Shown here in pieces: positions 21,486-64,000 of a stretch of 64,000 bases of DNA; position 1 is the first letter of the stretch, and the number at the start of each line of letters is the position of its first letter. The position numbers were made by a program, and so were the translations under genes. Source of the DNA: Fusarium oxysporum f. sp. lycopersici 4287 (lineage: Eukaryota; Ascomycota; Sordariomycetes; Hypocreales; Nectriaceae); contig NC_030997.1 of the NCBI RefSeq assembly GCF_000149955.1, positions 2,030,714 to 2,094,713 on the forward strand, given 5' to 3'. The notes beneath the pieces are model-generated. The model saw nothing but the letters and a program-made list of their open reading frames with translations. It ran no database searches and had not been told where the DNA came from.

Positions 21486-24137
21486 ATGTCTCAACTCTCA
21501 GCCCAACCAAGCCATGCCATTCACATACCTTCTGGAAGGGGCAAGTCTCGAATCGACCAAGTCGATAAGGACATTATTCAAGAGATTCGAAACAGAAACC
21601 TCAACACAACCTTAGATTCGAGTCAGTTCGTATCCGACAAAGTGAAAAGTTTGCGTCGCAGGGTTTGGGATGAATGGGTCGAGTAAGTTTCCACGCGACA
21701 TACTTAATAAAAGACTTAGTCTTACTCAGAATAGATATATCAAGTTCTCAAACATCGATAGCGACCAACTTTGGAAAGATCTTTGCGAGGGATCCACGAA
21801 AGCCATTCAAGAATTTCGATGCTTCCTTGAGTATTATATCGTCACATCGACAAAACTTGTGCCTTGTCTCGGCCCAGAAGAATATGAAAAGGAAAGAACC
21901 GTGAAAAGCGCTGGGACTATACAGGATGTTTGGTGTGCATTGGTTCATGTAGCTGATGAAGAGGTCTTAACAAATATCCGTCGGCAACATCCAGCTCATC
22001 GACAACTCTACATACTTAAATATCGTACTGATGCTGGTGGCCGTGGGCATGGGCCAGCGGCGGACGTTGGCAAAGTAAGGCATCCTCAGTATCAGTTTGT
22101 TGCTTCTGACTTACTGACAATCTGTGTTACCCAGCTCATCCCGAGACTAGCCACAGAACACGGGCTCAGCCGCACCCAGTTGTTCGAGAAAAAAGAGATG
22201 ACATTGGAAGACCAGCTGATGATCCTCAGAACCGTCTGGCAGCGAGCCAGATACATAACCTGTCAGCCTTGCCAGAGATTATCATTCTCTGCGATGTTGA
22301 TTATGGGAGGCATCGGTGGATGGCGATATGAAAGCCTAAAGCAATTGACGTACCGTGATATCGAACTTGGTTGGGTTAGAGATCCCCGAAACCCTCAAAA
22401 GGGGCAATGTGTTGCCACCATTCGTATACATCACGCCAAAAGGAAAAAAGATAAGATTGAGAGAGATCAGACATCCAGGTATGATGAATCACGAAAGACT
22501 GGTTAGAACGCCTACTGAAATCCATCAGCTTTACATTTGGTATTACTCTCGTTCCATTCAAGCCTGTTTGTCTCTTGACTCATATTGTCTCTATGGCATT
22601 CTTCAAGGATGCATTCTCGACCAACTTTACTACTCCTGAGGATATATTGTTTCCCAAGCCTGATAGTGAGGTCGACTATGTACCTTTATCGTGGAAGGAT
22701 GAAATTAAAGATGATCTTGTTTTTCAGCTTGGTTACAAGTTGTACTGGAAATTATGGCATCGCGTGCTCCTGGTGGGTGGACTACGTGAAAATCCAAAGC
22801 CCTACTCAGTTCGTGTTGGTGCTGGGAATCGCTTAGATGGTGCTTTGACATCAGCTATCCGAAGTTACGTTTTTGGCAACACAGATGCCGTGTTCCGCAA
22901 AAGTTACCTCCCAGCAGACATGCGAGATGACCTGATGGGTATATCATACGGCGAGGTTTCGGGAAAGAATGAAGCGACAGTCTCATTCCTTCACCAGACA
23001 TTTACGAAACGGGACGAATCAGCACCGGTCTATATCACGGAGGAAGAGTTCCAGTCCTTTGAAAACCGGAGGGATATCACGGAATGGCGCCGACAGCGAC
23101 TGTCTCTGCCTTGCAACAGCACCGAATCAAAGGCTATATTGGGAAAGATTCAACACGTGAAAAACGTTCTTGAAGAGAAATTGCTCGAAAGGAGACGAAA
23201 AGAGTACTTCAGAAAGGCCGACCAGCTTCGCAGCCTTGGACAGTCAACGTCACATTTACATCAAACTGCATTGATTTCCCCACGTTTCAGACAAAATCAA
23301 TCAAGCAGTAAGGCTGCAGAACAGCTGGCGCCTTGTTTTATTGCCGAAGATAGCAACTATGCTATCGCCAGCAAAATTGTTAGATATCTACGACAGACTC
23401 CTACCGATAACGACACCGCCGATAACGACACTGCTGATGACGACACTACTGATAACGACACTACCGATGCTGAGGCTAAAGCAGACCGGGCTCGCTCCAT
23501 ATGCTTTCTTTGCTTCAAGGACTTCTCAAATAGAACCAATCTGTCGGCGCATGTTCGGAACATTCATTTGAAAGACCTCGAGAAGCCGATTTCTTGTCTC
23601 GAGTGTAGACACCAAGGACAAGAGAAAACTGTTCCTGCTGGCTTCCCAGCCTGGAGCAGTCACACCGAGAGATATCACGGCTCCGAAAACTCGCCTATCC
23701 CAGCAAATAAGAGACCGGCTCTATGTTTGTTATGCAACAAGACCCTCACAATCGCAGGGTTCAGTAACCACCTCAAAAAAGCGCATGGCAGTAAATTTGC
23801 AGCCAAATTCCAGTGTCCTGCATGCATCGACCATTCTCTCCAGGAAACTATTGATGGTAAGGATGACTGGATCTCTCATGTCAAGGCTAAGCATGTTGGA
23901 TGTCGTATCGCTGGGGCGGTTTTGATTGGCGTGCCAGATAAGCCAGCCCAAAGGGATGACAATGACAGTTGCATGATAGGCATGAAACGAAAGTTAGAAG
24001 ATGAAGAGAAGACTGGCCAGAAGAGACTGAGAACCAATAGAAGTGTATTTGGGGTCGACCGCGGTGTTGAAGAAGAAGAGTTCTGGTGTACAGGACGTGA
24101 CGAGGACTATCTTGATGACATTCAAGATTTTGATTGA
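21486..24137 (+). CDS. Starship captain: DUF3435 tyrosine recombinase with C-terminal C2H2 fingers
   Basis: Exons 21486-21682, 21735-22478 and 22529-24137 (introns 52 and 50 bp) join in phase to 849 aa. The N-terminal helical region is followed by 'GGWRYESLKQLTYRDIEL' (first catalytic Arg, about R263), 'FGITLVPFKPVCLL', then 'PYSVRVGAGNRLDG' (about Y406/R409, the H/Y-x-x-R box) and 'FRKSYLP' (about Y440, candidate nucleophile). This is the order expected of DUF3435/Crypton-type YRs that cut and paste Starships. After about residue 560 a basic coiled region, an acidic D-N-D-T-A-D repeat and four C2H2 zinc fingers follow (about 639-800; the first is C-x2-C-x12-H-x4-H). The gene appears intact. 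The splice sites are my choice because only they keep frame through the motifs. It is the first gene of the block and points into it. Confidence 0.85.
23400..23475 (+). repeat. Coding minisatellite in captain (GATAACGACAC units)
   Basis: Five imperfect 15-base units based on GATAACGACACTGCC encode repeated D-N-D-T-A residues between the recombinase domain and the first zinc finger. They form a flexible acidic linker whose copy number is likely to vary between strains. Confidence 0.8.
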
Positions 24138-24246
24138 TTGGAAAGGTCAGAGATCTTAGCTTAGCTCTATGCAAAGTTTTGTCCTGAGCCAGCGCGACTT
24201 GATCAATGCCTGTATTAACGTAGTAATGGAATGATAATAATTGCCT

Positions 24247-25054
24247 CTAAATTTGCTGAAACGACTGCCAACCCTCGCGCCTCTTGTTTAACAGCATCTG
24301 TGCTTGGTGTCTGTGGCGAGGCTCGTGTTCCAAGCAGGTATGGCTCTCCCAAGTATGGCAATTGATTTCCATACTGCCACCACTAAAGTAATTCTTTACC
24401 TTCCAGTGCACCTTAACCTCGAGTTCGAAAGCTGCTCCTTTCATTTTCAGTTCCATATCTGAGATATCCACCATTTCCACGAAAATCTCTTCTGGATCCG
24501 GGGCCTCGAGGAGGCGGTTTAGCAAACCCGAAATGTTCAGGCTCTCCCAATTTTTGTATCCCCTATTCCTTCTCAAGGCGTTCTGATGGCAATCGGCTGG
24601 CTCCCCGAGATCCACCTCGTCGACAGATCTCATTCGACAAACTGGAACAAGATCTCTGCATTCGCGCCTGCATGTAGGGCAGTAAGGCCCTTTCTTTTTC
24701 TGCTCTTCGGACATCCCAGAGGTTATATGGGATTTTGCCAAACACTTTAAATGAAAGGTATGTCCCTCCGGGACAGAGGAATCATCGCTGACGCAAGTCA
24801 TGTACTGATCAGGGGAGCTGCCGAAGCAAATATTACAAACTTGCCAATCGTATTGACGCGTCATTCGTTCTCCCCGGTCATGATGCCTTTGAGCGCAGTC
24901 GTCACATACGAGCTAAGAAGGGTTAGAAGTAGCAATATCAGGCTGGCTGGAAACATACCCCATGGTAACCATGTGGTCGCCATTTCCATCCTTCCAGGCA
25001 AAGGGGCTTAATGCAATCCCAGCATCTACTTGCCGTATCAAAATAAACTGGCAT
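24247..25054 (-). CDS. RING-like zinc-binding protein, paralogue A
   Basis: Two exons (25054-24959, 24912-24247; 46-bp intron) give 253 aa. Exon 1 carries 'CWDC' and the exon 2 start carries 'VCDDC', a first zinc-type Cys quartet. Then 'MTRQYDWQVCNICFG', an internal Cys, 'GHTFHLKC' and 'YCPTCRREC' form a RING-like second cluster. The C-terminal half is a separate domain containing 'ELEVKVHWKVKNYF'. The gene at 26,093-26,840 is a clear paralogue with the same exon structure, transcribed divergently. A RING fold would suggest ubiquitin ligase or protein-interaction activity, but the spacing is atypical, so function is not established. It lies 110 bp from the captain's stop, convergent with it. 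Confidence 0.7.
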
Positions 25055-25168
25055 CTTTGCGCAAAGACTTGAATGAAAAATGAAGAATGAAGAATGAAGA
25101 TGGGGGCGAGGAAAGGCAGGGACGAGCTTGCTATAAATACCCAAGAGCTTGGTTGGAGACTTCCCAGA

Positions 25169-25222
25169 AGCACGTGTCATCAGCCAGCCCGCCTTCAGCT
25201 AACACAGCCCCTATATGCCAGA
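25169..25222 (+). repeat. Left arm of a 54-bp long-range inverted repeat
   Basis: Begins AGCACGTGTCATCAGCCAGC. A nearly identical copy in reverse orientation lies at 27,233-27,285, with about five differences. This arm lies just upstream of RING-like paralogue A. Confidence 0.85.
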
Positions 25223-25339
25223 AGTTAGTTCAAGTCTCGACGATACCCGCACTGCCAATAGTCCTCAGTTGCTTCTACTCAAGACAAGATCTCAAGGCAC
25301 TCACACCGCCCCAAGCTCATTATCCGAGAAGATGACACC

Positions 25340-25900
25340 ATGATAGGCCTCCAGGGAGGCTAACACGGCCTCATTTCTCATGATACAGGACCAACATGAC
25401 CCCAGTTCTTCCAGGTTGAGAGAGGCATGTGGTGCGCCTTCTACGGGCGGTTAGCGATGTCTAGAGAACTCCATTCGTGGAAGTCAAGTTTTGAAGGCCA
25501 GACATTGACCGTAATGGCTTCATGTGGCTTCGGCCAGCATGACCTTCTTCTGCATATGGGAAAGGTCAAGGCAGCAAGGCTCAGGAGGTAGCCAACTAGA
25601 AACTAGATCACCCCAAAGCTGCAAGAAGAAGCATGTGATGCATTATCTGCGGACGGGTAACGATATCTAGAGGACTTCATTCGTTGAATTGGAGCGTCCA
25701 GTGCCAGATACTGACCGCGGTGGCTTCATCCACATTCGGCCAACATGACCTCCTTTCCATATGAATGGTGGAGGTTGAGACAATGGGGTCTAGAAAGTGG
25801 CCAAGAAGACACAGGTCCCCCTACAACTCTAAGAACGGGGTATGAGGCGGGCGTTTAACTGCATTCGAGGGACTTCATTCGTAGGTTTCGAGCTTCGCAT
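25340..25900. repeat. Diverged ~205-bp tandem repeats between RING-like paralogues
   Basis: Two almost full-length units (about 25,441-25,645 and 25,646-25,848) share blocks such as CTAGAG-x-ACT-x-CATTCGT, GGCTTCAT, CGGCCA-x-CATGACC and CATATG in the same order. A partial unit precedes them (about 25,340-25,440) and another follows (from about 25,849). Identity is modest, so the duplication is old. No coding frame spans the units. They occupy the shared upstream region of the two divergent RING-like genes. Confidence 0.65.
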
Positions 25901-26092
25901 AACCTAATTGCTGCCTGTGTTGTCATAAGGTATGCTTCCCAATACTATGAGGCGAGGTGGACGAGGCTGATAGGTGGTCACCCAGTTTTGAGTACTTATA
26001 GGATGAGTCTGCCCCTATCTCGAACCTCAATCTCTTTAACCCCATTTCTCTACCAAACCCATCAACTCAATAACCACGTTTTTTACCTAACA

Positions 26093-26840
26093 ATGCCTAT
26101 TGTTCGCGGCATGCCGTTCAAGTGTTGGGATTGCCTTATCTTGCTGGTGGAAAGGGAATGGAGATGGCGACCAGAAGGCTACACAGGAGTATGTATTCCC
26201 CTTGGTCTTTCCTATCATAACTAATATCTTCTACAAGGTCGTTTGCGATCAATGTGCAGAACGTCATCACAGTGAGGGAAAGATAATGACTCGCCAGTAC
26301 GGTTGGCGAGAGTGCGGCCTTTGCCACCTTGGTGCCCCTGACCTCTATATGACCTGTGTCGCCGATCATTCCACCCCCTTGGGCCATAGCTTTCATCACG
26401 ACTGTTTCATCGAAGCCAGCAACAACTCGGGCGAAGCGAATGACAGCCTGGGCGAGAAGGGGCCTTTCTGCCCCAAATGCCAGAAAAGATGCAAAGAGCC
26501 GGTTCCGGTCGGGTCTATTCACATGGCTGAGCTGGTGGAGCTAGATCATGTGGAAGACCTGACATTGAACATCTGGGACTACCTGAAAGAGGCGCACGTG
26601 GATCCAGAATGCGTTACGCTGTCTATTGAGAGCGTTATGGATGTAGGTTGTATACCGTATTCATCACTGAAATATGGGAAGGTAGTGCGTATTAGCTGGC
26701 GAGTTTCTGTGAATGATGGCGAGGCTGGGTCGGGTGCCATTATCCCCCTTTGGGAGTCTTATTCATGTCTAAATGGTGAGCCAGAGCTCAGAGAGAAGGC
26801 AGATAGAAGGTTTGAGAGAATGCTTTGGTTCTTCGCATAG
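26093..26840 (+). CDS. RING-like zinc-binding protein, paralogue B
   Basis: Exons 26093-26188 and 26238-26840 (49-bp intron) give 232 aa. The intron is at the same codon position as in paralogue A, and exon 1 encodes exactly 32 codons in both. Shared signature segments are 'CWDC', 'W-x-WRP-x-GY', 'VCDQCAERHH', 'MTRQYGW', 'C-x2-C', 'GHSFHHDC' and 'FCPKCQKRC'. The C-terminal domain ('KVVRISWRVSVND', 'LWESYSCL') also corresponds to A. The two are therefore ancient tandem-inverted duplicates. Likely a zinc-stabilised intracellular protein; ligase activity is only a possibility. The start is the ATG at 26,093 because it matches A's start. Confidence 0.7.
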
Positions 26841-28136
26841 ATGGACTTGAAGTGGACATATCTACAATCATAACCCATATCACTTCTTAAACAGTTCGGT
26901 CTTCAGTTGCTCCTAGAAAACCTATCTCTTGTCACTTAACTCTCATTTTATCCCTACTATATGGCCATTCTTGCTATCTCCCTTGGCATATCGCTTAAAC
27001 GTAACAGACCGGGGCAGGGCCCTTAAAAGTGACCTGCTCGGTGCTCCATCTGCAACTTTCTTCAAGGATCCATCCACGTAGTTGGTACTTACATCCTCCC
27101 CCCTCAATACGGCCCAATGAGTGCCTTTGGTCCGCCATGATAATCTCGTACTTGGCTATTCGACAGTCGCCATTTGGGTTTGTCGTCAAGACGTTGGATG
27201 CAGATTGAACAGCAGGGTGATTCGTTTCGAGATTCGCATATAGGGGCTGTGTCGGCCGAAGGCGGGCTGGCTGATGACACGTGCTGAGATGGGCGAGGCT
27301 AGCTGTATAAGAACAAGCATTTGCCCTTCTCTCTTCAACCTTCTTCATCGCTCACCTCGTGTACATGGTTCTTCTATCCAACCCGCATCTTTCAACACCT
27401 CTCACAAGCGATTCAACTCTCACTAGCTAAGAACGGGACTCGTTGCCTCACCATCCACCATACACATGGAGGCCAAGGCTATCACGGTCGGTTTATATGG
27501 CCTTCAAAGCTGAATCTAGACGAATAGAGTACGTCAGCCAACTCCCAGTGGTCTAGCATCCAAGGGCGGTCTAGCTTTGGTGATATGATTGTCTGGACAT
27601 CGTAACCGCCCGGGAAGAGCCATACGAAACACCCATTTATACCGTCCGCAGCTGACCTGAGCGTTGTTGGCCATTTGATCGACCCTGAATGTGCTGTCTG
27701 GTCCAGTCACACAAGCATCGTGACCATGATGATGATACCGTGGAGACCGCCTTCCAAGGCACATAGCCATTCCTCTGGCCATCTCATCGACCTCAAGCGC
27801 TCTTCCTCTATCCAATGTTATCACGACTCTGGTGCTCCACGCCCCATTCAAAGGCAACCTGGCCAGGTCCGCGTCATGCAAAGATCGTTCCTCACGAATC
27901 ACATCCCCTTAACATCGCCAGCCGCCCGTAGACTTGCACATCAGACCGTTCCATGGACCCAACGTCTTACACGACACTTCATCTTCAAAATATGCCTTGC
28001 CATTACGTCAACTCCTGTTAGGTGACATTCAGGGGCATGTTGGGGAAATACTTAAGAAGTCAAATCCCCCCGCCTCGAATTACTCTCCTCACTTCCTTAC
28101 CTACCAACCCTCACAGCTTCTTAACAGAATATCATC
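26841..28136. other. Gene-poor interval containing the right inverted-repeat arm
   Basis: No complete gene is supported. A minus-strand segment around 27,100-27,150 ends in a good donor (GGAG/GTAAGT) after 'IMADQRHSLGRIEGG' and could be an exon of a decayed gene. Other open frames (27,534-27,902, 27,675-28,025) show no family signal. Confidence 0.35.
27233..27285 (-). repeat. Right arm of the long-range inverted repeat
   Basis: Reverse-complement partner of 25,169-25,222, with the arms about 2 kb apart and enclosing the tandem repeats and RING-like paralogue B. Sequence beyond the arms does not match, so the repeat is bounded to about 54 bp. Confidence 0.85.
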
Positions 28137-29417
28137 ATGAACACCAACACCCCTTTCACCGACTCAGCGATCTTTGAGATAGACAAGGAGAGCGCTGCAT
28201 GGCATATCGGCTTCATGTTGAGCGAACCCGGCTTCCCTCTACAACAAGCCCTCGACGCGTTCCAACTCGGACTATCTCTGAATGCGGACTCCGATCCATG
28301 TGAAGAGTCTTCCAAGATCTGGCATGTTCAGGATAATTACTGTCCATCTCCATCGCTGTCTAGCCCTGATGACGGAGTACTCACTCCTCAGAGTATGGAC
28401 GATGCACAACAAGATGTCGCGATACTCCTCAGGGATTGTGAAATTCTCCTGACAGAGCACCACTCTCCTCTCAATTCGGAATCAGAACAAGATGAGACAC
28501 TCGCTACTCAAACACTCAACAAACCACAAGCTGCCGTGGAGTATACTGCAGAGAGTATCGAGACTGAGCCTTGTTGGGAAACAGATGACTCAAGAAATGC
28601 CAGTGGACTCATTTCTCCAGGTCTTCGAATTATTCACAGACAAACGCCTAGTCCTGGAAGCCCTGCATCCACCGTTGAAGAGAGTCCAGCCTCATCCCCG
28701 GAGAAGAGCTCAACTCCACCATCCAGTCCTTCCATAATCTCGAATTCACCTACACAAGTTACAACAACTGATGCCTCTGATGCTCCTGCAAACGAAGGAG
28801 AAGGCAGAAATGGCCTAGTTATGGATCTGCAAACGAAAAGTCCAGGAAGTTCCGGATACTCCGCTATACAAGTTGTGATACCGTCTGAGCCTGCTCAGGC
28901 CCCTATCTACATCGATCTCACTGGGGAGGATGAGCCTTCCGACGGAGGCATCCCCGCCTCAAAGCCTGAAAGTGAGGGCCGACGGAAACGCAAGCATGGC
29001 CACGAGAGGGTGCATAGCGAGCAGCTGTCATCGTCCCAGGCTCGAAAGAGGCCAAGAACAGAAAGAAATCTCGAAGAGGATGAGCTTCGGTTGAGAGCAA
29101 AAGGAATAGCATGGGAAAGGGGGCATGAAAGAAGACACCAGACGGCTTATCTAGATGGCCATAAGTGGTCATCTGAGGAGTTTATGCAGGATCCAGAGTG
29201 CATCATCGGGATGGAGGTCATAGTCAATAATGGGAACCACCAAACGCTTTGGCTCTTCAAGACTGGACAAACAGACGGACAGGATAGAGTGTGGGAAGGC
29301 GATGATGCTTTCGGTACTTACAAAGTCTCGTTTGCAAGTAAGGATATTGAGTCTATGATAGGCAAGGATTATCGGACAGTCATTAAGAAGTATAAGTATA
29401 TAGAGATAGACATCTAG
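28137..29417 (+). CDS. Unknown nuclear-type protein with SUMO-interacting-like motif
   Basis: A single-exon 426-aa protein. Residues about 1-50 form a helical, hydrophobic-acidic segment. The middle is low-complexity, rich in Ser/Pro/Thr. At about 260-270 it has 'PIYIDLTGEDEP', a textbook SUMO-interacting-type motif (I-D-L-T followed by acids). Two basic clusters follow, 'GRRKRKHGH' and 'ARKRPR', compatible with nuclear import. The last about 90 residues form a conserved-looking globular domain with 'IIGMEVIVNNGNHQTLWLF' and 'WEGDDAFGTYKVSF'. I recognise no catalytic family. The start is the only good ATG (ATCATCATGAA). Its stop overlaps the stop of the convergent gene 29,414-29,852. Role inferred only as nuclear/SUMO-linked. 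Confidence 0.65.
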   Translation: MNTNTPFTDSAIFEIDKESAAWHIGFMLSEPGFPLQQALDAFQLGLSLNADSDPCEESSKIWHVQDNYCPSPSLSSPDDGVLTPQSMDDAQQDVAILLRDCEILLTEHHSPLNSESEQDETLATQTLNKPQAAVEYTAESIETEPCWETDDSRNASGLISPGLRIIHRQTPSPGSPASTVEESPASSPEKSSTPPSSPSIISNSPTQVTTTDASDAPANEGEGRNGLVMDLQTKSPGSSGYSAIQVVIPSEPAQAPIYIDLTGEDEPSDGGIPASKPESEGRRKRKHGHERVHSEQLSSSQARKRPRTERNLEEDELRLRAKGIAWERGHERRHQTAYLDGHKWSSEEFMQDPECIIGMEVIVNNGNHQTLWLFKTGQTDGQDRVWEGDDAFGTYKVSFASKDIESMIGKDYRTVIKKYKYIEIDI

Positions 29418-29852
29418 ACGCGGATTTCGTACTCCGCGAGCAGAATTGATAGCGCATCCAAACCAAAGCTCTCGCCCAATTCAACGTTCAAGAACGGCAC
29501 AAAGTCCAGCTCAATTCCATCATCCAACTCCGTAGATTCTATCCTTCATTAATAATGTCATGGGCGAGCTGATGCGATATGACGTACCACTTTCTGATAG
29601 AGACTGACTGTCTGACAGTTCAGGAAGGCTATCTGAGTCTGAGAATAGCTCCGATTCGTATGTCTGTGAAACCGGGGAGTCTGCCGAGCTGCTGCCGCCA
29701 TAAGTGGGCTCATAGTCGAGTAAAGCCTGTAGTGCTTCAGCGGATGCCGGATCGCTGTCCATGTTCATATAGCCAGGACTGAGAAAAGGCCAAAGGTCTT
29801 TTAAGACGCACAGCAAACCATCTGGAAGTTTGGAGCTTGAAATGGATTGCAT
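29414..29852 (-). CDS. Small acidic protein of unknown function
   Basis: Exons 29852-29588 and 29538-29414 (49-bp intron, phase kept) give 129 aa. The protein is strongly acidic and Ser-rich ('SDSDSLPELSDSQSLSES') with a C-terminal 'ELDFVPFLNVELGESFGLD' segment; acidic plus bulky hydrophobic residues resemble transcriptional activation domains. Its layout (short acidic protein, one intron) resembles the 38,463-39,032 gene. The terminal TAG lies on the complement of the convergent gene's stop, so the two coding regions overlap by four bases. No known family. Confidence 0.5.
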
Positions 29853-29937
29853 GGTGAGCCTTAGGTTACCAGTAGTGAGATGGCGCGGAGCGTGCTAAGA
29901 TGACCTTCGAAAGACACGAAGATCCTGTAACGCTTGA

Positions 29938-30684
29938 TGCTGGTAAGATTCAAGGGCGAAATGTATGATTTAGAATTGGTGGGGGGATATATGTACTGGT
30001 AAGTCAATTTTAGCACTTCCCTGTATACCGGTATGCCACTTTTAGCATTTACTTGTATACTGGTAAGGCACCTTTAACGCTTTCCTGTATACTAGTAAGC
30101 AGTATCTGAATAAGTACAGGTTACCAGGAACCCATAGGTCAAACGGCGGTACATACTGGTAAACCAGAGGATCACAATTAAATTTGACTAGTAAGCACAG
30201 TTGAGCTGGTACCAGTAACCGCAGCCTACTAGTTACTACCGTAACTACCGTTGCCGGTAGCAATCATATACTGGTAACCACACCACTACAGTTAGTAGTA
30301 GGTATCAGTTACCAGCAATACTAAAACTAGACTTACTGGTAGATACACGGACCCCACACGAATGTTACTAGTACCCGCCATAGGCAATTTACTGGTAAGA
30401 ATTTGTTACTGGTACAACGTTAGCCGGTATCACCCATAGGCGCCAAATAGACGCCTGCTTTGACTAGTAACAAAGAGCCCTGCAACGCAGAGTTGCTAGT
30501 ATCTGACCAAGGGTCAACTACAGGTGGCTAGTAAGAACGAAATTTAGCATTTGGGGCAATGACGCCGCATAAAAACATGAGACTAGTAACGCGATATTTA
30601 ATGGACTTGATTTAATTTATTTCCAGTAACAATATAAGGAGAGTTTATATCCGTCTTATCTCACTAACACCTCACTTACCGGTA
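29938..30684. repeat. Phased array of palindromic TACYRGTA motifs (32-bp period)
   Basis: Cores match the self-complementary consensus T-A-C-Y-R-G-T-A, allowing one mismatch. Starts at 29,994, 30,026, 30,058, 30,090, 30,122, 30,154 and 30,186 are spaced exactly 32 bp. Further cores lie at 30,210, 30,227, 30,252, 30,269, 30,310, 30,334, 30,366, 30,390, 30,407, 30,422, 30,462, 30,494, 30,526, 30,581, 30,621 and 30,677, many again 32 or 24 bp apart; an outlier is at 29,938. The first three 32-bp units also share spacer sequence (TTTTAGC, TGTA), while later spacers have diverged and only the core persists. No coding frame explains it. Confidence 0.85.
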
Positions 30685-30693
30685 TCTACAACC

Positions 30694-30875
30694 ATGCTTG
30701 TTACTTTTCTTTCCGTCGTCCTTATTATCGCCATGAGTACACACTGTATTGGATCTGGGATTGGCCAGATGTAAGGTCTGGGCCATCAAAGGAGATCTAT
30801 ACTAGTTGCATGGATGTTGAAGTTCTACCTGGTTATTGTGATGGAGATATCGCATTTGTGAAGGGCAAGACCTAA
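30694..30875 (+). pseudogene. Possible small secreted protein, frame broken
   Basis: An ATG ten bases after the last array core opens a signal-peptide-like stretch ('MLVTFLSVVLIIAMS') followed by Cys and Gly-rich residues, then a stop. A second frame continues with Cys-containing sequence ('YTSCMDVEVLPGYCDGD') to a stop near 30,875. One indel or a very short unseen intron would join them. No family recognised; this could be chance. Confidence 0.25.
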
Positions 30876-31263
30876 ACTTTGCTGTCATTAAGGAACAACT
30901 CTCTGTATTATAGTCACAGATGAGATAATTCGGGAGCAACAGAGGATGGGAGAAATTTTAAGAACAACTTCAAATGGGAAAGCGTTTGACCCCGAAAAAT
31001 CCCCCGCTCAATCACTAAAAACTGAGCCAATAACACGTGTGTATTACCCGCGGAGTACCGAGAAGGAGGCCGGTGAAATCTCCACTTTTTCCGTGGTGAC
31101 CGTCGCCGATCACCGGCAGGTGGGTCCTCTAAGGCCGACGACTCTGAGATCTTCAGTGAGGCATGAATTTTAACACCGTCGATTATCAGACTCTAAGTGG
31201 CATAAATACCTTCCGATATTTCTGGTCCATTGACTCTTACGTTCAACTACATTAGAGCTTACA

Positions 31264-32043: not shown

Positions 32044-32211
32044 CATGTTATTTTTCATGTACGAGACAAATGCAATCGTTGAGAGCCTAAAGGGTATCAC
32101 CTGTCTGCCAGTTCTAATTTTAACATCAGACCGTGGGGTTGCGGCCGCAGCCTTTGCCTATAAAACCCCAAGGCAGCCCGCCATATCCATCATGCTGATC
32201 CAGTACTCAAC

Positions 32212-52705: not shown

Positions 52706-53172
52706 TGTGAGGATGTAAGTTATGGTAATGAATGTCGAGATGCTATGTTAGCCTCTGGGCTGCCATGTATTAAATAAATGAACGATATTAAGAAGCTTCA
52801 GGGACAATAGGCGCTTACAATCCAAAAATAAAATCAATACGCGCGCAAAAGCATCATTTGCCGCCGAGCACCACAATTAGAACCACTTGTCCAGGAACCC
52901 GATGCGTAGTAGCGGTACCCTCCGATAGCCCCGTCCATAAGCCCCACCCAGCACCGTATTCTGATTGCCGCGCCGTGCCGGAGCTCCACTGAAATCCGGT
53001 TCGCCCGACGACAATCGGTCTGCCTGAGCGGCTACACTTAGGCTGCAGGCGCTTCGCACTTCGAATTTGATTTAAACACTTAAATTTCGCATGTCCCTGT
53101 TCGGAGTAGACACATACTTACCGCTCGAAACACCCAGCTTTGCACTTCATTCTCCAAATCATTGCTGAAAGA

Positions 53173-55149: not shown

Positions 55150-55503
55150 ATCATAAGTCATATTTTCAAAATGAATCTTCGTATTAGAGCCATTATCATT
55201 TTCAAACACCGCTTGTCGCTGGATTTAGTGCGCCTCTGTTGGGGAGATCAATTATGAGAGTCGTGCGTTACGAATAGCTTTTAGAAAGTCGAAACGAATT
55301 TGATACGACGCGCGCCTTGCCACCGTACTGGTGTTAATTTAAGTATCTCTCTTTTAAGCTAAGCGATTAAATATGATACTCATTCACAGATTAAATTTAG
55401 ATAATTGTACGTCTTATCACCAGTCGAGACGCCGCCTTAATTTAACCATTGGATTATAAAGTACTTTCACTCCTGCCTTTCACCTGAACCAAATCAACCA
55501 AAC

Positions 55504-55506
<3 letters not shown>
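55150..55506. other. Intergenic region, nothing recognised
   Basis: AT-rich interval between the ferric reductase stop and the CA repeat; no open frame or motif stands out. Confidence 0.4.

Positions 55507-55544
<38 letters not shown>
55507..55544 (+). repeat. (CA)19 microsatellite in 5' leader
   Basis: A pure dinucleotide repeat ending 19 bp before the ATG of the following gene. It is therefore within its promoter or 5' UTR and could alter expression by length change. Confidence 0.95.
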
Positions 55545-55545
<1 letters not shown>

Positions 55546-55563
55546 CCAAATCAGAAACTCAGT

Positions 55564-57324
55564 ATGACCAACTCAATTGGCCTCGTCGGAAGTCTCGGGG
55601 CGAAACTTGCACATGACAAGGTTAAAAAAAGGTTGAGCAATATCGGTGTTGATGTTGTGAAAAAGGAAGACGAGGAGGTACCGAAGTACGTGGTGGCGGC
55701 AAACGCTTCCAATATACCCGAAAAATGGAGTAGCGCAACTCAGATGCCCAAACAATGGCTTCAAGCTATGATGGACATTACGCCTATTCGTGATCTAGTT
55801 TGGATCGATCCAGAAGAGTGGAAGGTGAAGAATAAGCAGGGAGGGGGGGAGGAGGAGGCAGAGGAAGGAGATGGAGGAGGGGAGGAAGAGAAGGGAGAGG
55901 AACCCAGGGGAAGGAAGCGAAACTCGGAAGCTTTAGCAGCTGAGGCGAAGGCCGAGGCCGAGCAGAAAAAGGAGGAAGCAAAGAAGAAGGAGGAGGAGGC
56001 TAGGAAGCAGAAGCAGGCTGCTGAAGATGCAGCCAAAGCCAAAGCCCAAGCAGATGCTAAAGCCAAAGCTGAAGCAGATGCCAAAGCTCAAGCAGATGCC
56101 AAAGCTCAAGCAGATGCCAAAGCCAAAGCAGATGCAGATGCTAAAGCCAAAGCAGATGCAGATGCTAAAGCCAAAGCAGATGCCAAAGCCAAAGCTCAAG
56201 CAGATGCAGATGCTAAAGCCAAAGCAGATGCAGATGCTAAAGCCAAAGCAGATGCAGATGCTAAAGCCAAAGCAGATGCAGATGCTAAAGCCAAAGCAGA
56301 TGCAGATGCTAAAGCCAAAGCAGATGCAGATGCTAAAGCAGATGCAGATCCCAAAGCAGATGCAGATCCCGAAGCAGATGCAGATCCCAAAGCCAATGGT
56401 GACAAGCCCGCCGAAGCACCTGCAGTGAAGCAAGAATCGGCCGAGCCTGACTTGAGATCAGTTTCACCCTTCGGCGGTTCCTCTACATCAGCCTCGTCTG
56501 CAACCTCCTCCGGAGCCTCTGGTTCAGCCTCACCTAAGCCATCGGGTCCCACGGAGAGCAAGTCTCCATCACCTTCACCAACCACCCGGGGCCTCAGCCC
56601 TGAAGCTGAAGATGCAGAAAAGCGAGCCCAAGATGCCATTTCTAGGGCTGAAGACGCTCAAACGGATCTTGTAAGAGCTCAGAGAGCTGCAACTGAAGCG
56701 GTGGAAATTGCCAGAACTCTTGGAGCCGCCGTCACATATATACCTGACTTACAGCCAGATGACCCCTTTTCATTCGTTATTCCGGCGAGCATGCGACAGG
56801 AAAAGAAAGCGGCAATGGGGAGAATTAAGTATAATACCGATAAGGGCTACTTCTTAGTATCGGAACCATGGCAGTTTGGTTATCATAGGACATATATGTT
56901 CTCAGGCTCGCGCTATCCTGCTAACAAGAAGGCATTCAGGGACAATAAGGGGAAAACACTGATCGCAGAGACTGAAGATGGGGGCGAGGATGATGAAGTT
57001 GATAAGGTCTGGAGGATTTTGATCGAGGATGTTGCGGTCTTGAAAAAGGCAGGGAGGATCTACCGCGTCCTCATCACCTGGCGGGATGAGAAAGACCCAA
57101 AGAGCGAACTTCCAAAGCTCTACAATATAACCAGCATGAGGCAGAGATTCGGACAAGCCACAAACCAGCGACTCGCCTTAGAGCAGGCGTTTCGGGGACA
57201 GGAGCCGGATTGGGATTTACCAAAAGCGACTAAAAACAATCAAAACGCCAAGGCAGAGTTCATCCGCAAGCATATGGGTGCCTTAGAACGAGCACGATCG
57301 TGTTCGCCACAGGTAGAGGAGTGA
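55564..57324 (+). CDS. Orphan protein with long AKADADAK repeat
   Basis: A 586-aa single-exon protein. The N-terminal 90 residues are globular ('MTNSIGLVGSLGAKLAHDKV', 'MPKQWLQAMMDITPI'). A Glu/Lys/Arg-rich coiled region is followed by about 110 residues of the repeat 'AKADADAKAKADAD' (about 155-270), predicted a single long charged helix. Then come a Ser/Pro-rich linker, an Ala/Glu heptad helix and a globular C-terminal domain ('PDDPFSFVIPASMRQEKKAA', 'VWRILIEDVAVLKKAGRIYR'). No family recognised. The repeat should vary in length between strains. Antisense frames over the repeat are by-products of its composition. Confidence 0.65.
   Translation: MTNSIGLVGSLGAKLAHDKVKKRLSNIGVDVVKKEDEEVPKYVVAANASNIPEKWSSATQMPKQWLQAMMDITPIRDLVWIDPEEWKVKNKQGGGEEEAEEGDGGGEEEKGEEPRGRKRNSEALAAEAKAEAEQKKEEAKKKEEEARKQKQAAEDAAKAKAQADAKAKAEADAKAQADAKAQADAKAKADADAKAKADADAKAKADAKAKAQADADAKAKADADAKAKADADAKAKADADAKAKADADAKAKADADAKADADPKADADPEADADPKANGDKPAEAPAVKQESAEPDLRSVSPFGGSSTSASSATSSGASGSASPKPSGPTESKSPSPSPTTRGLSPEAEDAEKRAQDAISRAEDAQTDLVRAQRAATEAVEIARTLGAAVTYIPDLQPDDPFSFVIPASMRQEKKAAMGRIKYNTDKGYFLVSEPWQFGYHRTYMFSGSRYPANKKAFRDNKGKTLIAETEDGGEDDEVDKVWRILIEDVAVLKKAGRIYRVLITWRDEKDPKSELPKLYNITSMRQRFGQATNQRLALEQAFRGQEPDWDLPKATKNNQNAKAEFIRKHMGALERARSCSPQVEE
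56028..56390 (+). repeat. 18-bp coding minisatellite (GATGCTAAAGCCAAAGCA)
   Basis: Units of 12-18 bases built from GCTAAAGCCAAAGCAGATGCA repeat without frame change for about 360 bp. The later units are almost identical, indicating recent expansion, while the flanking units are diverged. Confidence 0.9.
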
Positions 57325-57667
57325 TATTGCTGGGAAGATTATTATTACTGTCGTTATCGATTTTCTGATTATGATGCTAGCTAGTTAATTGACTAATTGC
57401 TTTAAAACTCTTCATCCCCTTCCTCCCCTTGTCCCCCTATCACCCACTTCACGCCCTTCACCCAATTCATCCGCTTCACCCTCTTGATCCACTTCAACCC
57501 CTCTAGCCACATCACCCACTCCATCTATATTTCATCTCCTTACTATACACTTTGCCCTTCACGCTCCTGAAACTCTTCATAGCCTTCAAAAATCCCCTAC
57601 TTCATCTCCCTTGAACCCTCCTTACTCTTGACACCTTTCGTATATTCATAACCTTGAATATGAGTAT

Positions 57668-58131
57668 NNNNNNNNNNNNNNNNNNNNNNNNNNNNNNNNN
57701 NNNNNNNNNNNNNNNNNNNNNNNNNNNNNNNNNNNNNNNNNNNNNNNNNNNNNNNNNNNNNNNNNNNNNNNNNNNNNNNNNNNNNNNNNNNNNNNNNNNN
57801 NNNNNNNNNNNNNNNNNNNNNNNNNNNNNNNNNNNNNNNNNNNNNNNNNNNNNNNNNNNNNNNNNNNNNNNNNNNNNNNNNNNNNNNNNNNNNNNNNNNN
57901 NNNNNNNNNNNNNNNNNNNNNNNNNNNNNNNNNNNNNNNNNNNNNNNNNNNNNNNNNNNNNNNNNNNNNNNNNNNNNNNNNNNNNNNNNNNNNNNNNNNN
58001 NNNNNNNNNNNNNNNNNNNNNNNNNNNNNNNNNNNNNNNNNNNNNNNNNNNNNNNNNNNNNNNNNNNNNNNNNNNNNNNNNNNNNNNNNNNNNNNNNNNN
58101 NNNNNNNNNNNNNNNNNNNNNNNNNNNNNNN
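57668..58131. other. Assembly gap (464 N)
   Basis: Unknown bases truncating the 3' part of the minus-strand gene to the right. The 57,400-57,600 flank contains a Pro/Thr-type pyrimidine-rich imperfect repeat (CACCC-x-TTCA motifs), which may have hindered assembly. Confidence 0.99.
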
Positions 58132-59376
58132 CTGCGATACGTTTCTGTGCCCCACGTTGTGAGGAAAAGGCTTGTTATACACGCCATCGCCATAATATCG
58201 ACTACCATTTGCGATGGGTTTGATGTCGACATAAGGCTTTCGCCGAACTTGGCGAGGAAATAATGTGCATGTGGTCTCAGTAGATTTCTTAGTTCGTCGT
58301 TCTGTGGCGAATGTATATGGGTCCATATAGCAAAGAGCCTTTCTCCATTTTCATATAAGTTAAGAGAATTGCATGAGTCGAATACTATTTTCGTAAATGT
58401 TGTGAAGCCTGTCAATTCTGACGTAGGAACCAAGTCCAGCCGCACAAAAAAAGGCATCCCCTTAAAAATACATTAGGAACATCTTCATGGGTGCCAATTA
58501 TAGCTGAACGTACCGCTATCGCCAACATGTGGACATGTTCGAGCTGATGAGCCAATTTTTGAATAAACTCCATATTGACATAATGCCCCGAGAGTGCTCG
58601 ACACCGAGGTAGTGTTTCAAGCACGGCTGCTATGTTGACATTCCCAATCGGCTCCACCGCATGGTCCTGGCTCATGAGCTCAGGTACAATACGTTCGACG
58701 GATCCCAGGGTCTTTTGTATTTCCACGTGGGACACACCACCTGACTTGACGATAAGCCAATGCACCGTGGCTAGGAAGTCCAAGCGTGGCTTATCAGACC
58801 ACATCTCTCTTGTTAATTTGGTATGGAGCTGCTCGAGGACTTGTTCGGTGGTCATGGCCATCACCTGCCTGCTCAAGATGCCGTCAGGCTTAATGCCGGC
58901 GAGAGAAAGAAACAAGATCATTGAGATAAATGTCTCTGCGTCGGAGGGTGCCTAGTTGACTGTCAGTGTTGCAAAGTGGCTGGCTGGACGGTGATACAAA
59001 CAGGTAGATCGTTGATGAGAACAGCATACTCAATCCACGGTCTATAGTAGATATAGCGTCGCCTATAATATGTTGCCAAGTCTGGACCGTATTCCCTGAT
59101 TCCCTTTATAGCTTGGGTCAGGAAGACCTTGAAAGCATCACGACGAGCATGCTCAAGTCCGTGCTGCACTACTATTTCATGGCTGATAGGCAGCTGGGTA
59201 ACCGGGGTGTTCTCTATACTCTGAATGGAACGCTGATTGTTATCGGGTGTATATGACGGAGCTGCAACCTCAAAGTATCCAGAATGCATGCTAAGACCAA
59301 CGAAGTGTCCGGGAATATGATAAAGATCTTCTTGTGAGACATGGATGCATCGCCATGTGATGCTGCGTTGAGTCAT
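58132..59376 (-). CDS. Unknown helical protein, 3' end lost in gap
   Basis: The start is the ATG at 59,376 (MTQRSITWRC). Exon 1 ends near 59,000 after 'YAVLINDLP' (donor GTTTGT), and a second exon from about 58,954 continues 'APSDAETFISMILFL', then 'LHTKLTREMWSDKPRLDFLA' to about 58,480. A third segment in another frame ('LTGFTTFTKIVFDSCNSLN', 'HAHYFLAKFGESLM') runs into the N gap. It looks like a mostly helical cytosolic protein of 350 aa or more. The exon 2-3 junction is not resolved. No domain recognised; not obviously related to its neighbours. Confidence 0.45.
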
Positions 59377-59772
59377 GTTTGTGTCGCGGAGTGAGAAGTA
59401 AAGAGTGTAAGGATGTTGGGATACAGAGGAGGGAGTGCCTGTTTTATAGTTGGTGACTCGAGTTCGAGAAGGCAGCCCAACTCCTTCTCGACCAGAACGG
59501 TGGCCATGAGCCGTCGAGCATATCCATCTCACAAAAGTCAGAAGGTAGAAAATAGTTCCTTGTTCATCTGACTTCGTGTTGAAATGTCACAGAGGGTTGA
59601 AAAAGATAGTAAATTATATTCAAATTCAGATCTACAATTTACCGCGGTTCATATCCGTGAAACAATATCATAATAGCAAACTATCGTCGATCCATAAATG
59701 CGTAAATACGGTTTGGTATAGGGTTGCCATGATCTCGGACTGCTGACTAACCAAAGGGGACATCCCCCTTGG

Positions 59773-62719
59773 TTAGTCAGCAGCAATGGACCCCACCACG
59801 CCCCAGAGCGATTGGCTATCAAGATTTTCCTGCTCCCATTCGAAAAAAACAGGTACGTCGTAAGCAACCATATTTTCCAGAACCTTTCCGGCTTCACACA
59901 AACGCCTCGAGTCATCACAGTCAATAAGTTGATGAAGCGTTTTCAGTTGTCCTTTATCAAGTTGCTTCCAATCTTGCACAGAAATACTAAATGGAGGGCC
60001 AGAATTAAGAGGAATGAATGGCAACAGTCCATGGAAATGACCACAGACTTCATTCCACATTCTGCCCTCACGCAAGCTATTTGTCAACTCGTTGCCTTCA
60101 ATCTCGAGCCGGTGAGCAAGATCGGCCTTTTCCTTTTTCCCTAGTCGTGACAGCGACCGTTCGGATTTCCAATCATCCACTAGACGCGCCATGAGCGCTC
60201 GAGAGTGGCGAAGCTGGAACTTGCCAAGTGCGGTCTTGGCAGAGGCGTTTTTCAAATAAAGAGCACATTGCTTCAATGGATCGCCTTGTTTCGATATGAT
60301 TATGTGCTCGTTGCGATTCCTCCATGCACTGACAAGTCCTTTGAACTGTTCAACGGCAGGGATGCTCAAAATTGCTGCCGCCATCTTCATGACATACTGC
60401 TCATCCAGACTTGGCTTAGACGGAAGGTTGAAAAAGGGGGCTTCTGATCGAATGATTCTGAGCGTTTTGTTGAACGTTTCCGAACAGTCTGCATAACCTC
60501 GTGTATTCCTCGCCCCGGCTTCAAGTGGCTCTGGAGGAGCTTTTCTCTTATGCCTCTTGGTGCTCACTGTTGCCTCGTTCATTCCGGGGGCTAGCACGTC
60601 AGGGTCCACCCATTTGACGTGGAAACCCGGCCGCCCATAGAGTCCTTTGAGCCCACACTCATTACAGACCTCAAGCGGATTGTTGACGTCCCTGAAATTT
60701 GGCGTTATACCAGGGGAAAGGTAATTAATCGATATAGCCAAGGAATCTTCAAGGTTGAGTACTTGATGATATTGATCAGGTTTAGTTTCGATGAGGTCTC
60801 CTGGCCGCTGGATTATAAGTTCAAATCGGATGCCGACAGCTTCGAGTTGTTTGGGTTTAAAGAAGATGTTCAGGTGGCGGACGAATTGTGGACAGGGCTT
60901 GCATTTGTACTTGGCGTGAACCCATTTCTCGAATTTCTCAGTATCCTCTGTAAGAATACGCAGAAAGAGCTTTACTCCCAAGAATCCGACGTTGACAGAT
61001 CCAAATTTATCATCCTCTTTATGCATTGCTGTTATTGATCCCTTCTTTCCGAGATGCGTGTAGGGCTCGTTGACGTGGGTGAGTTCTTTGATATCAAGTT
61101 GCTCGCCAGAATACAAAGGACACGAGGACCAGATGATGGATCTCATAATCCCGCAGAAGTAGGATACCTCTTTCTCAGGGGCTTCGAGGAATTGTTCTAG
61201 CTCCCGAGATGCTTGTCTTGTGGTCATGGAGCTTCCCCCCTCTTCAAAGTCCGGCCACTCAAACTCTCGCCCATTTATTGGGTCGTCTCGAGAAACAATG
61301 ATGCCGTTTTCATCCTTCTTTTCAAACCTGTTGAACTGCACATCAGGATCGCCTTCTGGCCTGAGTTGGTCTTTAATGTTGAAATGCGATGCCTTCTCCG
61401 TTATCCAAGGCAATCTGGCCTTGTTCGCGTAGTTAGGCGTTTCTGATAGTTCATCGAGGGTCTTCGGCATGTTCTTGCCAAGTTGATTTTGGACGAGAGT
61501 TGGTGTATCTTTGGGTTCAATAAAATAGCGTTCGTAATAGGATTCGTCCGCTAGACCGTGCGGAATCGAGGTGTTGTTCTCTGAAATTGGGGGTTTGTCT
61601 ATGTGCTCGCCCATGCTTGTAGAATCTGGTGTTGTAAAGCGTGTTTGAATGCTATCGGTTCTAGATGCAGTACTGCTTGTTGGAGACAAGGTTCCGCTCG
61701 TGTCGCTGTGTTGCGACGACCACTCACTGTTCCTCCCGACTCCTGAGTCACTCGACGGCCTGGCTAGACCCGGAGTCGCTGGGCGGCTGTCATCGGCACG
61801 CGCGACTGCAGCAGGGATGGCTGTTTGCTGCGTGACTTCAGGCTCGGCGTCAGCCATCGGCGTATCTTCTTGTTGGACGGGGCATTCGGCAGTGGCTGAC
61901 TGCGTCGAGTTCTCGTTTGCTGATGCATCGTCGAGGTTCGGCAGGGCAGAGTGATCCCTGCTGAGCTGAGTTTGCACTTCGGCGGGCTCATCATCTACCT
62001 GATCCTCCTTGCCATGATCATGCAACAACTGGCCCACGGTCGCATTATTGATGTTCGTCTGCTCCTCTTCCGTCTCCGTTGAAATAATGGGTTGGATTGG
62101 ACGATGGCGAGAGACAGCGTGGGCATGACTGTCTCGGTTGCTAGCCTCGACAATAGCTGGCTCATCATCAACCCTAGGCATGCTCTCCATAGATGCATCT
62201 CCAGTATAATGAGCTTCCCGACAAGCAGTGTCTTGGGGTTGCCCGTTGGCCATTGCTGCAGAAACTGATACGTGAATTGTCGTATCCACTCGAGTGTCAT
62301 CCATGCTATCATCTGAAGCCTCGCTGGCTTCGACGTCTGTGGTTCCATTTTCTGATGTGTTAGGCTGTGCATGTTGCGCCCAACGTAGATGCGCGCGCAG
62401 GAGATGGCCATGGCATTTCTTGCTGGCGAATACTGAAGCTACCAGCATCTTCTGATTGAGTGCTCATCTCCATATCAGTCGTGACCCGATCTATTGTCTG
62501 TAGATTGGGCCTGGCAGCAATGCTCGAGTGCAGCGTCTGTATTCTTTCTGTCCAGTCTTTCAATTTTGGTAAGACGGTCTGCAACACGTCTTCAAGCTGC
62601 CTCCCGGACCGCGTATTGACTGGGATCGATATTTTTTCGAGTTCGGTTTGCAATGAATTGAAGTCTGATTTGAGCTGCTCCAGTCCCGCGAGCGCGACGT
62701 CATCATTTGTGGTGGGCAT
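59773..62719 (-). CDS. JmjC-domain protein
   Basis: Exons 62719-62443 and 62351-59773 (91-bp intron, phase kept) give 951 aa. The N-terminal helical segment and about 250 acidic, Ser/Thr-rich residues precede the JmjC domain (about 470-650): 'THLGKKGSITAMHKEDDKFG' with H-x-E (about H536, E538), 'LGVKLFLRI', 'QRPGDLIETKPDQYHQVLN' with the distal His (about 621) and 'AISINYL'. The iron-binding H-x-E...H triad is therefore complete, so the 2-oxoglutarate-dependent oxygenase may be active, for example as a histone demethylase or protein hydroxylase. A C-x2-C motif ('EVCNECGLKG') and a helical C-terminal region follow. No PHD, Tudor or JmjN is seen. A nuclear role is inferred. Confidence 0.75.
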
Positions 62720-63184
62720 GGTAGGGGCGAAAGCGTCAGTGTAAAGATGTGATGTTGTGGATGGCAGGACCCAGTGGATATGACGGGGGGCGCCGTACTA
62801 CTTATGTACCCATTGCTTAGCGCTATGAGATCCGAGCGCCTGGGGGAGGCTTCTGACCCTTTGGACGCACCATGCAGGCACGGCCCGGGTTTGGCTCCAT
62901 ACATATTACGTCACTGGCTGTGCCACAACTTTGTGGCTGATGTGGAGCTGGAGGTATAACGCACATACCTGGTGGTCGCATCATCAGGAGTACCTTGATC
63001 ATATTCTTATCTGATATGGCAGAAAAATATATTTGATATCGAGAATCTTGTTGAATCAGACTAGTCTATCACATCCTATACGCCCAACAGTCCCATAAAT
63101 GGTACACAAAATGCCCTAATCTGAATCCGAAGGTAGTTGCAACGAACATCCCGCTAACAATTAAACCCCTTGCACAAACAGTTT

Positions 63185-63971
63185 TTACATAAGCGCATGC
63201 TGTCTCATGTAATTCTCAATCTGATCCATCCACGCGTCGTCACACGGTAGACCAGATCTTAGTCTGTCCTCAGCTATCGTAGAAAGATAAGCACACGCCT
63301 TCAAGAGGTTTGTGGGGATGCTGTCCAGGGCTACAGACGCCATCACCTTGAACGTCTCTTTGTCTACCCTAAGGTGATCTTTACTGTCCAGTTTGTCAGC
63401 CATAAACCAACCAAGACAAATGGAGAAACGCATACACAAATTTCTCAGCCACGTCGGTGTAGATCGCTAATAAGAACACTGACGGCCCTACAAGCTCTTG
63501 CCAGCGTCTTCCGGCTCGCCTGTGCTCCGACATCTTACTCCTCGTCTGCAGAGCTTCGGGACCCACGCTCTGCGCCGTTAGATAGATATCAAATGCAATG
63601 CTAGCGGTAACACGGCCGCTCTCGGACGGGATTAAGCCAGCCTGCCTATCTGTTTTGACTCTACCCTCCAGTGTATCAAGGAACCTCGAAAATTGCACGT
63701 AGCCGGATCCAGGTGGTAGTGATGTTCTTTCTTTGCCAGCTATCGCGCCATTCAGAGCGTCGACCGCTGAAGTTATGTCGAGGTCGGCCACGGGAGTATC
63801 TGGCGGAATCCTGGTCTGGCGAACAAGGGAGTCCCAGGCCGTTAGGGTTTGCCTCCAGGTTTGACTGAAACAATCCACCGGATCGTCCTTGATGAACCTA
63901 GGAGAAATCGAGATAACTTGCTCCAACGACTTCTTTTTTCTGGGCTTCTTCTTTGCGCGAGTGCGACTACC
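63185..63971 (-). CDS. Orphan helical protein, copy 2 of pair (5' end outside window)
   Basis: Two exons are visible (63971-63436 and 63383-63185, 52-bp intron). The acceptor 'CATCATTTCAG' at about 63,972 implies that earlier exons lie beyond the window, so the gene is partial. The visible part is about 245 aa. It begins with a very basic patch ('RTRAKKKPRKKKS', nuclear-signal-like), then helices, and contains 'RRAGRRWQELVGPSVFLLA' and 'IYTDVAEKFV', aligning with the gene at 41,572-42,331. Its C-terminal exon ('VALDSIPTNLLKACAYLSTI') also matches the spliced tail of copy 1. Unknown family. It is 466 bp downstream of the JmjC start on the same strand. Confidence 0.55.
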
Positions 63972-64000
63972 TGAAATGATGTTCAACAAACATATTAGCA

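Follow-up and report, generated by a model that had tools for sequence, protein, structure and literature searches.

The window analysed here, a 64,000-nucleotide stretch of the Fusarium oxysporum f. sp. lycopersici 4287 genome placed on the 2.23-Mb contig C12, contains the 5' part of a 5S rRNA gene, a DUF3435 tyrosine recombinase (captain) gene and a series of cargo genes (Table 1). These cargo genes belong to an element that runs from C12:2051485 to C12:2144125 (20,772 to 113,412 when the window numbering is continued rightward), so that its right end lies 49.4 kb beyond the window. The sequence evidence set out below makes it very probable that these 92,641 bp are a complete Starship interrupting a 5S rRNA gene.

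Table 1. Features of the putative Starship and of its target gene (window positions unless a contig is named)
Feature	Position	Strand	Basis or remark
5S rRNA gene, 5' part (nt 1-39)	20733..20771	+	Matches 5S genes elsewhere in this genome at 100%
Direct repeat CCCGTC (6 bp, 5S nt 34-39), left copy	20766..20771	+	Overlap of the 5S halves
Probable Starship, part within the window	20772..64000	+	Both ends adjoin halves of one 5S gene
Left terminus AAGTTCTTC	20772..20780	+	Imperfect inverted repeat of the right terminus
Captain, DUF3435 tyrosine recombinase, 829 aa, four exons	21486..24137	+	PF11917, exon model
Ankyrin-repeat cargo ORF	42418..43227	+	PF12796, 45.6 bits
DUF3723 gene, 842-aa open frame	43383..45911	-	PF12520, 194.9 bits
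Degenerate RING plus patatin-like remnant	46101..47775	+	Patatin part truncated, nucleophile motif GSEAG
Zn(2)-Cys(6) transcription-factor-like fragment	49479..50188	-	PF00172 below cut-off, two frames
Ferric reductase-like gene	53173..54614	+	Possible intron 53647-53696
JmjC-domain gene, 891-aa open frame	59773..62448	-	PF02373, 61.0 bits
Direct repeat CCCGTC, right copy	C12:2144126-2144131		Overlap of the 5S halves
5S rRNA gene, 3' part (nt 34-119)	starts G000:C12:2144126, outside the window		Match to the 5S query

The boundaries were located with a 124-nt 5S query. Its positions 1-40 (one upstream base plus nt 1-39 of the gene) match window positions 20732-20771 with 100% identity, and its positions 35-124 match 113413-113502, again with 100% identity. 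The two halves overlap by CCCGTC, a direct repeat of exactly 6 bp whose flanking bases differ between the two copies. Joining the flanks in silico restores the whole 124-nt query and thus, in this genome, an intact 5S gene. The earlier note had proposed an undegraded Starship with its right end past 64 kb and had suggested 20.9-21.5 kb as the place to seek a target-site duplication; both ends, the repeat and the interrupted gene were all found, the repeat lying just to the left of the range expected. Six of the 5S genes matched in the same genome were confirmed with Rfam RF00001. The Rfam search of window positions 15000-64000 gave no match at E 0.1, presumably because the one third of the gene present there is not long enough, and a tRNA search of the window found none. 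Terminal inverted repeats are present in most Starships; here six of the nine terminal positions match when the two ends are compared by eye.

The captain is the first gene of the element, starting 714 bp inside the left end and pointing inward, an orientation that the earlier note had described. Its exon model (21486-21682, 21735-22074, 22135-22478 and 22529-24137, from the ATG to the end of the stop codon) encodes 829 residues with no stop interrupting them, and the two large open frames match PF11917 with 24.9 bits (cut-off 25.8) and 58.9 bits. Aligned with the F. oxysporum protein P0001, the model is identical at 825 of 834 positions, five gaps being counted among them (99%). The three catalytic boxes that the note had recognised are borne out as GGWR (R243), PYSVR (Y386 and R389) and FRKSY (Y420), and these residues are the same in all 12 relatives aligned, which were taken from 17 matches. 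The C-terminus holds a zinc-finger-like region with weak zf-BED and zf-Di19 matches. TFIIIA-like fingers were considered and found no support: the captain profile gave weak matches to CTCF-type zinc-finger chains, and no TFIIIA chain was among the matches listed. A captain tree, computed from database relatives, agrees with the grouping of the Fusarium lineages. In F. mundagurra and F. albosuccineum, relatives of the captain and of the DUF3723 protein lie on contigs of equal size (250,065 and 89,103, respectively).

That the captain stands alone in an accessory region of the ordinary sort, next to a 5S gene split by an unrelated rearrangement, is an extremely improbable reading of this arrangement: it is at odds with the exact 5S halves and their 6-bp repeat and with a captain that lies 714 bp from one of them and is directed inward, and it is contradicted by the recurrence of these termini at further 5S genes, above all by a right end on contig C14. 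This right end is 87% identical over at least 3 kb, up to the very 5S nucleotide at which the element ends here, and the flank beyond is different. Two left ends likewise abut 5S halves, one on C13 with terminus CAGTTCTT (76% identity over 108 bp, the 5S part included) and one on C10 with terminus AAGTTCTT, for which the evidence is the 8 bp beyond the 5S half. Because related ends recur in these other 5S genes, we regard the boundaries of the element as real and its target as the 5S gene.

A scan for the right-junction pattern returned two matches against no control match, and a scan for the left-junction pattern (at most three mismatches) four matches against one. The weakest of these four, on C6, was rejected, having three mismatches and not being a 5S sequence. 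In a census of 5S loci, three of 47 left cores had no adjacent right core, and these are the loci at this element, C13 and C10; among 36 exact right cores, two had no left core, and both adjoin this right end. The exception in the census is C1:505550, a right part of 5S that breaks off close to this point and is preceded by sequence other than that of this element. Of the five 5S loci that the census found cut here, four can be assigned to one putative element family, C10 by 8 bp only. Such a link could account for part of the truncated 5S pseudogenes; a 2017 paper (PMC5555474), citing a 2005 study, gives their share of the 5S copies of filamentous fungi as 18-83%.

A second complete copy did not turn up in this genome, where the captain-side end matched only itself and right-end fragments at other places are partial and 65-90% alike. 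No clear captain was found beside the left ends on C13 and C10 within the 3.6 kb and 1.1 kb inspected. When 19.9 kb of the element served as a DNA query, weak matches on C15 and C71 were all that came back; this search overlooked the self match and is therefore not counted as evidence of absence. A viral-contig scan yielded 70 pattern stretches and no relative.

The cargo over the whole element comprises DUF3723, JmjC and asparaginase genes, two NLRs, a patatin-like gene in degenerate form and a weakly matched ferric reductase. Among the recurrent accessory families of Starships, DUF3723 and the two NLRs are strongly represented, the ferric reductase falls just below the cut-off and the patatin-like family is present as a remnant only. 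DUF3723 had been predicted for this block and is confirmed by its Pfam match, with at least 33 relatives across Fusarium among the matches listed. The two other predicted families were recovered in part. The ferric reductase-like gene matches both PF01794 (24.6 bits, cut-off 28) and PF08030 (21.8 bits, cut-off 22.2), in each case just below the threshold; a GTAAGT..TTTTAG intron, one of several possible in the intron scan, joins its two reading frames. Two loci of this genome that combine RING and patatin-like parts align with the patatin-like remnant at 25-26%, but the remnant is degenerate, its GGG and GTS-type motifs being replaced, and the Pfam patatin profile gave no match on it. The two cargo genes for which relatives were sought, DUF3723 and JmjC, both have them across Fusarium, which qualifies the earlier note's expectation of new content among the orphan cargo. 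The JmjC protein is 100% identical to F. oxysporum P0051 over 97%, and a F. langsethiae copy is among its five nearest rows, nearer than the copies of the fujikuroi complex. The JmjC and DUF3723 trees hint at movement between Fusarium lineages, with paralogy as the alternative. No paper linking JmjC to Starships and their captains turned up in the literature searched.

The same inventory bears on the reading of a dead or domesticated Starship that keeps intact ends but can no longer move. The degenerate patatin-like gene, the Zn(2)-Cys(6) gene split across frames and the failure to find a second full copy in this genome all speak for such a state. It is nevertheless unlikely in our judgement, given an open captain with a 99% counterpart in a different F. 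oxysporum, 5S halves free of mutation and the outcome of the RIP scan, in which no 2-kb window within the element satisfies both criteria and one satisfies a single criterion.

The right tip of the probable Starship copies part of the gene that it interrupts, which hints at how the element finds its target. Here 13 bp corresponding to 5S nt 48-60 (CATAGTCAAGCCA) stand in inverted orientation, exactly mirrored about the 6-bp direct repeat. This part of the gene falls in the A-box region of the internal promoter. At the right junction 16 of 21 bp of the mirror arms are symmetric, a value reached at 2 of 200,308 positions. The site formed in the excised circle is weakly symmetric (10/21, reached by 2.3% of positions). 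Mirror symmetry was considered for the left end as well and rejected, the left junction scoring 6/21, a value that 43% of positions reach.

We tentatively favour the view, at somewhat below an even chance, that this 13-bp arm could be a recombinase half-site common to element and target. Apart from this reading, the captain, as a tyrosine recombinase, presumably cuts the 5S gene at nt 34-39 and inserts the element at that point, the role generally ascribed to other captains. On the half-site reading it would recognise nt 48-60 as one half-site, the mirrored copy at the right tip would let the excised element and the target present the same arm to it, and the right junction would become a two-armed site upon insertion. 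As 5S genes are scattered through the genome and hardly vary in this region, dozens of genomic sites would be on offer. That the arm is instead a coincidence or a by-product, for instance a 5S scrap captured in inverted orientation in an older insertion and without a role in recognition, is a serious possibility, though again short of even. The symmetry is confined to the right junction, and of the 25 5S genes extracted, 14 have the 13-mer in full and 11 do not (a 26th locus was left out of this count). The 13-mer is retained in the C14 right end, but the two right ends are homologous, so that the arm has a single origin and is, evolutionarily, one observation. A chance origin has to accommodate 13 contiguous bp centred exactly on the direct repeat, with only two positions as symmetric in the scan, and their persistence in two copies that differ by 13% elsewhere, although 13 unchanged bp are by themselves not improbable at 87% identity.

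With exact ends, a target and an intact recombinase, the element is a ready substrate for studying how a captain finds its site, and the mirrored arm makes the half-site idea testable with a single oligonucleotide. Truncated 5S pseudogenes have long been known in filamentous ascomycetes. A bolder extension, which we consider doubtful, is that 5S-targeting Starships generally might carry at one tip an inverted copy of the 5S internal-promoter region, mirrored about the crossover to give a shared half-site, and that their insertion and decay might be a main source of these pseudogenes.

Targeting of 5S genes has already been reported for the Osiris Starships. These members of the Enterprise family in Aspergillus fumigatus are captain-bearing, as is the element here, and insert into 5S genes, fragmenting them (PMC12153272). 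In the available part of that report, mean Starship lengths are tabulated as 38-138 kb, target motifs are treated as predictions still needing experimental proof, and direct repeats are generally longer than 6 bp with 5S targeting, whereas they are exactly 6 bp here; no mention of a mirrored 5S arm such as the present one was found in it (PMC12153272). Within Fusarium, the 80-kb HTR 4 Starship of F. xylarioides shares with this element a 5'-terminal DUF3435 captain, target-site duplications on both flanks and a link to F. oxysporum (PMC11620798). Its captain differs by 2.7% from the nearest F. oxysporum copy, in contrast to a captain fragment of F. xylarioides that is 77% like the captain described here. 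The terms '5S rDNA' and '5S rRNA' are absent from the main text of the HTR 4 paper (PMC11620798), as from that of two other Starship papers (PMC12289983, PMC12506042).

A paper that deals with Voyager (PMC10128009) likewise mentions Starships as reported to insert in 5S genes, and Voyager and the element described here both carry DUF3435 and DUF3723. When compared by eye, the Voyager target motif AGAATACAGGGC (PMC10128009) shares 9 of its 12 letters with nt 22-33 of one 5S type of this genome, L057. This stretch lies just 5' of the crossover observed here. Voyager itself reportedly inserts in a 5S gene.

The element has two well-defined ends, and both lie in one 5S rRNA gene. The window is G000:C12:2030714-2094713. 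A repeat of 43 bp that precedes the captain (a DUF3435 tyrosine recombinase gene) by 0.7 kb is the start of this 5S gene, and the remainder of the gene was encountered 92.6 kb further right when the contig was examined up to its end with the window numbering extended. In a 124-nt 5S query, positions 1-40 align at 100% with 20732-20771, and positions 35-124 likewise at 100% with 113413-113502, so that the right end indeed lies beyond 64 kb, as the earlier note had proposed. The two parts overlap in CCCGTC (nt 34-39 in 5S numbering), and joining the flanks of the 92,641-bp element in silico regains the exact 124-nt query. We are highly confident that this is a complete Starship inserted in a 5S gene.

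The Voyager Starship reportedly inserts in 5S genes. Osiris Starships of A. fumigatus likewise use 5S genes, which are thereby fragmented, as their insertion site (portions consulted of PMC12153272), and 5S genes are reported as Starship insertion sites, with a Voyager target motif, in the portions consulted of PMC10128009. Because of these reports, 5S-inserted Starships are already known as a kind; what is added here is a complete member at a Fusarium locus, its exact address and its mirrored tip. A F. xylarioides Starship, in contrast to the element, is described without a 5S target in the corresponding portions of PMC11620798.

Related ends were found elsewhere in the genome (61.2 Mb, 71 contigs). 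Contig C14 carries an 87% match to the final 1.5 kb of the element (C14:989284-990824); the match stops at the corresponding nucleotide of another 5S gene, whose flank differs. Both copies have the NLR and kinase region in common, with up to 95% identity; the remainder of the 10-kb C14 stretch showed no similarity to the element. None of the best DUF3435 candidates listed lies on C14, and no left end turned up there with up to 3 mismatches allowed. Since the kinase-like region (L035:4578-5827, in the stretch extracted from the C14 copy, versus 96133-97378) is 95% alike and the ends 87%, the two copies look mosaic in sequence. Left ends inside a 5S half occur on C13 (76% over 108 bp, 5S part included) and C10 (only 8 bp past the 5S half). 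There are five more right-end matches, all of them partial: one, at 90%, falls within the element itself, and the other four, at 65-80%, are spread over C68, C14 and C13.

A census of 5S cores, allowing up to 1 mismatch on the left and up to 3 on the right, returned 47 left and 60 right cores, 44 of them paired. The three unpaired left cores are those of the element, C13 and C10. Among the 16 unpaired right cores, two adjoin a right end of the element type (C12, the contig of the window, and C14), three belong to full-length 5S matches and ten prove, by sequence, to be other types of 5S gene that have the left side. The last (C1:505550-505573, in extracted stretch L070) is a shortened 5S right part cut near the Starship crossover, with upstream sequence unrelated to the element and no clear captain in 3.9 kb. 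Counting cuts at the crossover point only, with part of the paired sites read over full length, there are 57 uncut sites versus 5 cut loci, 4 of which bear ends of the element.

The right junction reads TGGCTTGACTATG, 8 bp, CCCGTC, 8 bp, CATAGTCAAGCCA, its two 13-bp arms being mirror images about the direct repeat; the left arm is element sequence, whereas nt 48-60 of the 5S gene form the right one. Symmetry extends to 16 of 21 positions, a score reached at 2 of 200,308 positions of a 202.7-kb stretch, the right junction being one; the left junction agrees at 6 of 21. The 13-bp arm would be a recombinase half-site, present in the element as well as in its target, a tentative reading that we place just short of an even chance and that rests on one origin, because the C14 end is homologous to that of the element. 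No mention of a mirrored 5S arm was found in the main-text portions searched of the Starship and 5S literature, and the arm may well be in print elsewhere.

PF11917 matches the captain in two large frames, one of which scores 24.9 bits, slightly below the cut-off of 25.8, and the other 58.9 bits. A four-exon model gives an open frame of 829 aa, sharing 825 of 834 aligned positions with the F. oxysporum protein P0001; identity of the captain to a protein annotated as F. oxysporum f. sp. vasinfectum is 99%. R243, Y386, R389 and Y420 occupy catalytic columns invariant in all 12 aligned relatives, out of 17 database matches. The captain first recognized from sequence is thus real and open. The closest named proteins among these 17 are all from Fusarium, and the captain tree agrees with what we take to be the grouping of the host lineages. 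Relatives number at least 33 for DUF3723 and at least 18 for JmjC, only candidates sharing most words being scored. Contigs of matching length suggest that relatives of the captain and of DUF3723 lie together both in F. mundagurra and in F. albosuccineum, each time on a single contig, as do DUF3723 and JmjC relatives in F. beomiforme.

Most open frames above 150 aa across the whole element were compared with Pfam. Of the three accessory families named in the earlier note, DUF3723 was upheld by a strong match, the ferric reductase gene was seen but scores just below the cut-offs, and the patatin-like gene survives as a remnant with altered motifs. The JmjC product matches a F. oxysporum protein at 100% identity over 97%, and this match and that of the captain suggest that the host is a strain of the F. 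oxysporum complex. The two NLRs share 93% protein identity in their PNP parts and 73% on the ankyrin side. Most remaining scanned frames had no Pfam match at E 0.01, and no 2-kb window within the element satisfied both RIP criteria.

Captain and cargo features of the element (window numbering)
Feature	Position	Strand	Remark
Captain	21486-24137	+	DUF3435
Cysteine-rich ORF	24250-24912	-	no Pfam match at E 0.01
Cysteine-rich ORF	26091-26837	+	no Pfam match at E 0.01
627-codon open frame	55441-57321		long KADADAKA-type low-complexity repeat; no Pfam match at E 0.01
Gene block	57600-59586	-	57668-58131 reads N
Ankyrin ORF	inside window		Pfam scan
F-box-like ORF	inside window		just below Pfam cut-off
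RING-patatin remnant	inside window		GGG and GTS-type motifs of patatin part replaced
Zn2Cys6 fragment	inside window		Pfam scan
JmjC gene	inside window		Pfam scan
L-asparaginase	79,823-80,785		right of window
Gene block	82464-84400	-	
2EXR	91,514-92,254		right of window
Weakly kinase-like ORF	94,624-96,822		right of window; PF00069 23.1 bits, cut-off 31.7
PNP-NACHT-ankyrin NLR, first	98,043-102,593		right of window
PNP-NACHT-ankyrin NLR, second	108,067-112,387		right of window

The paralogous cysteine-rich ORFs adjoining the captain are RING-like by eye and 34% identical, and the two gene blocks are weakly paralogous. Elsewhere in the same genome, two DUF3435 loci on different contigs (G000:C15:2195867-2197375 and G000:C71:426653-428161) have identical scores and open frames; the C15 loci tested showed no tblastn similarity to the captain at 1e-3. 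Four further copies (C3:1097628, C3:1356650, C6:3104592 and C6:3363209) have identical scores and the same internal stops (one TGA, three TAG), as would fit a dead captain copied by segmental duplication.
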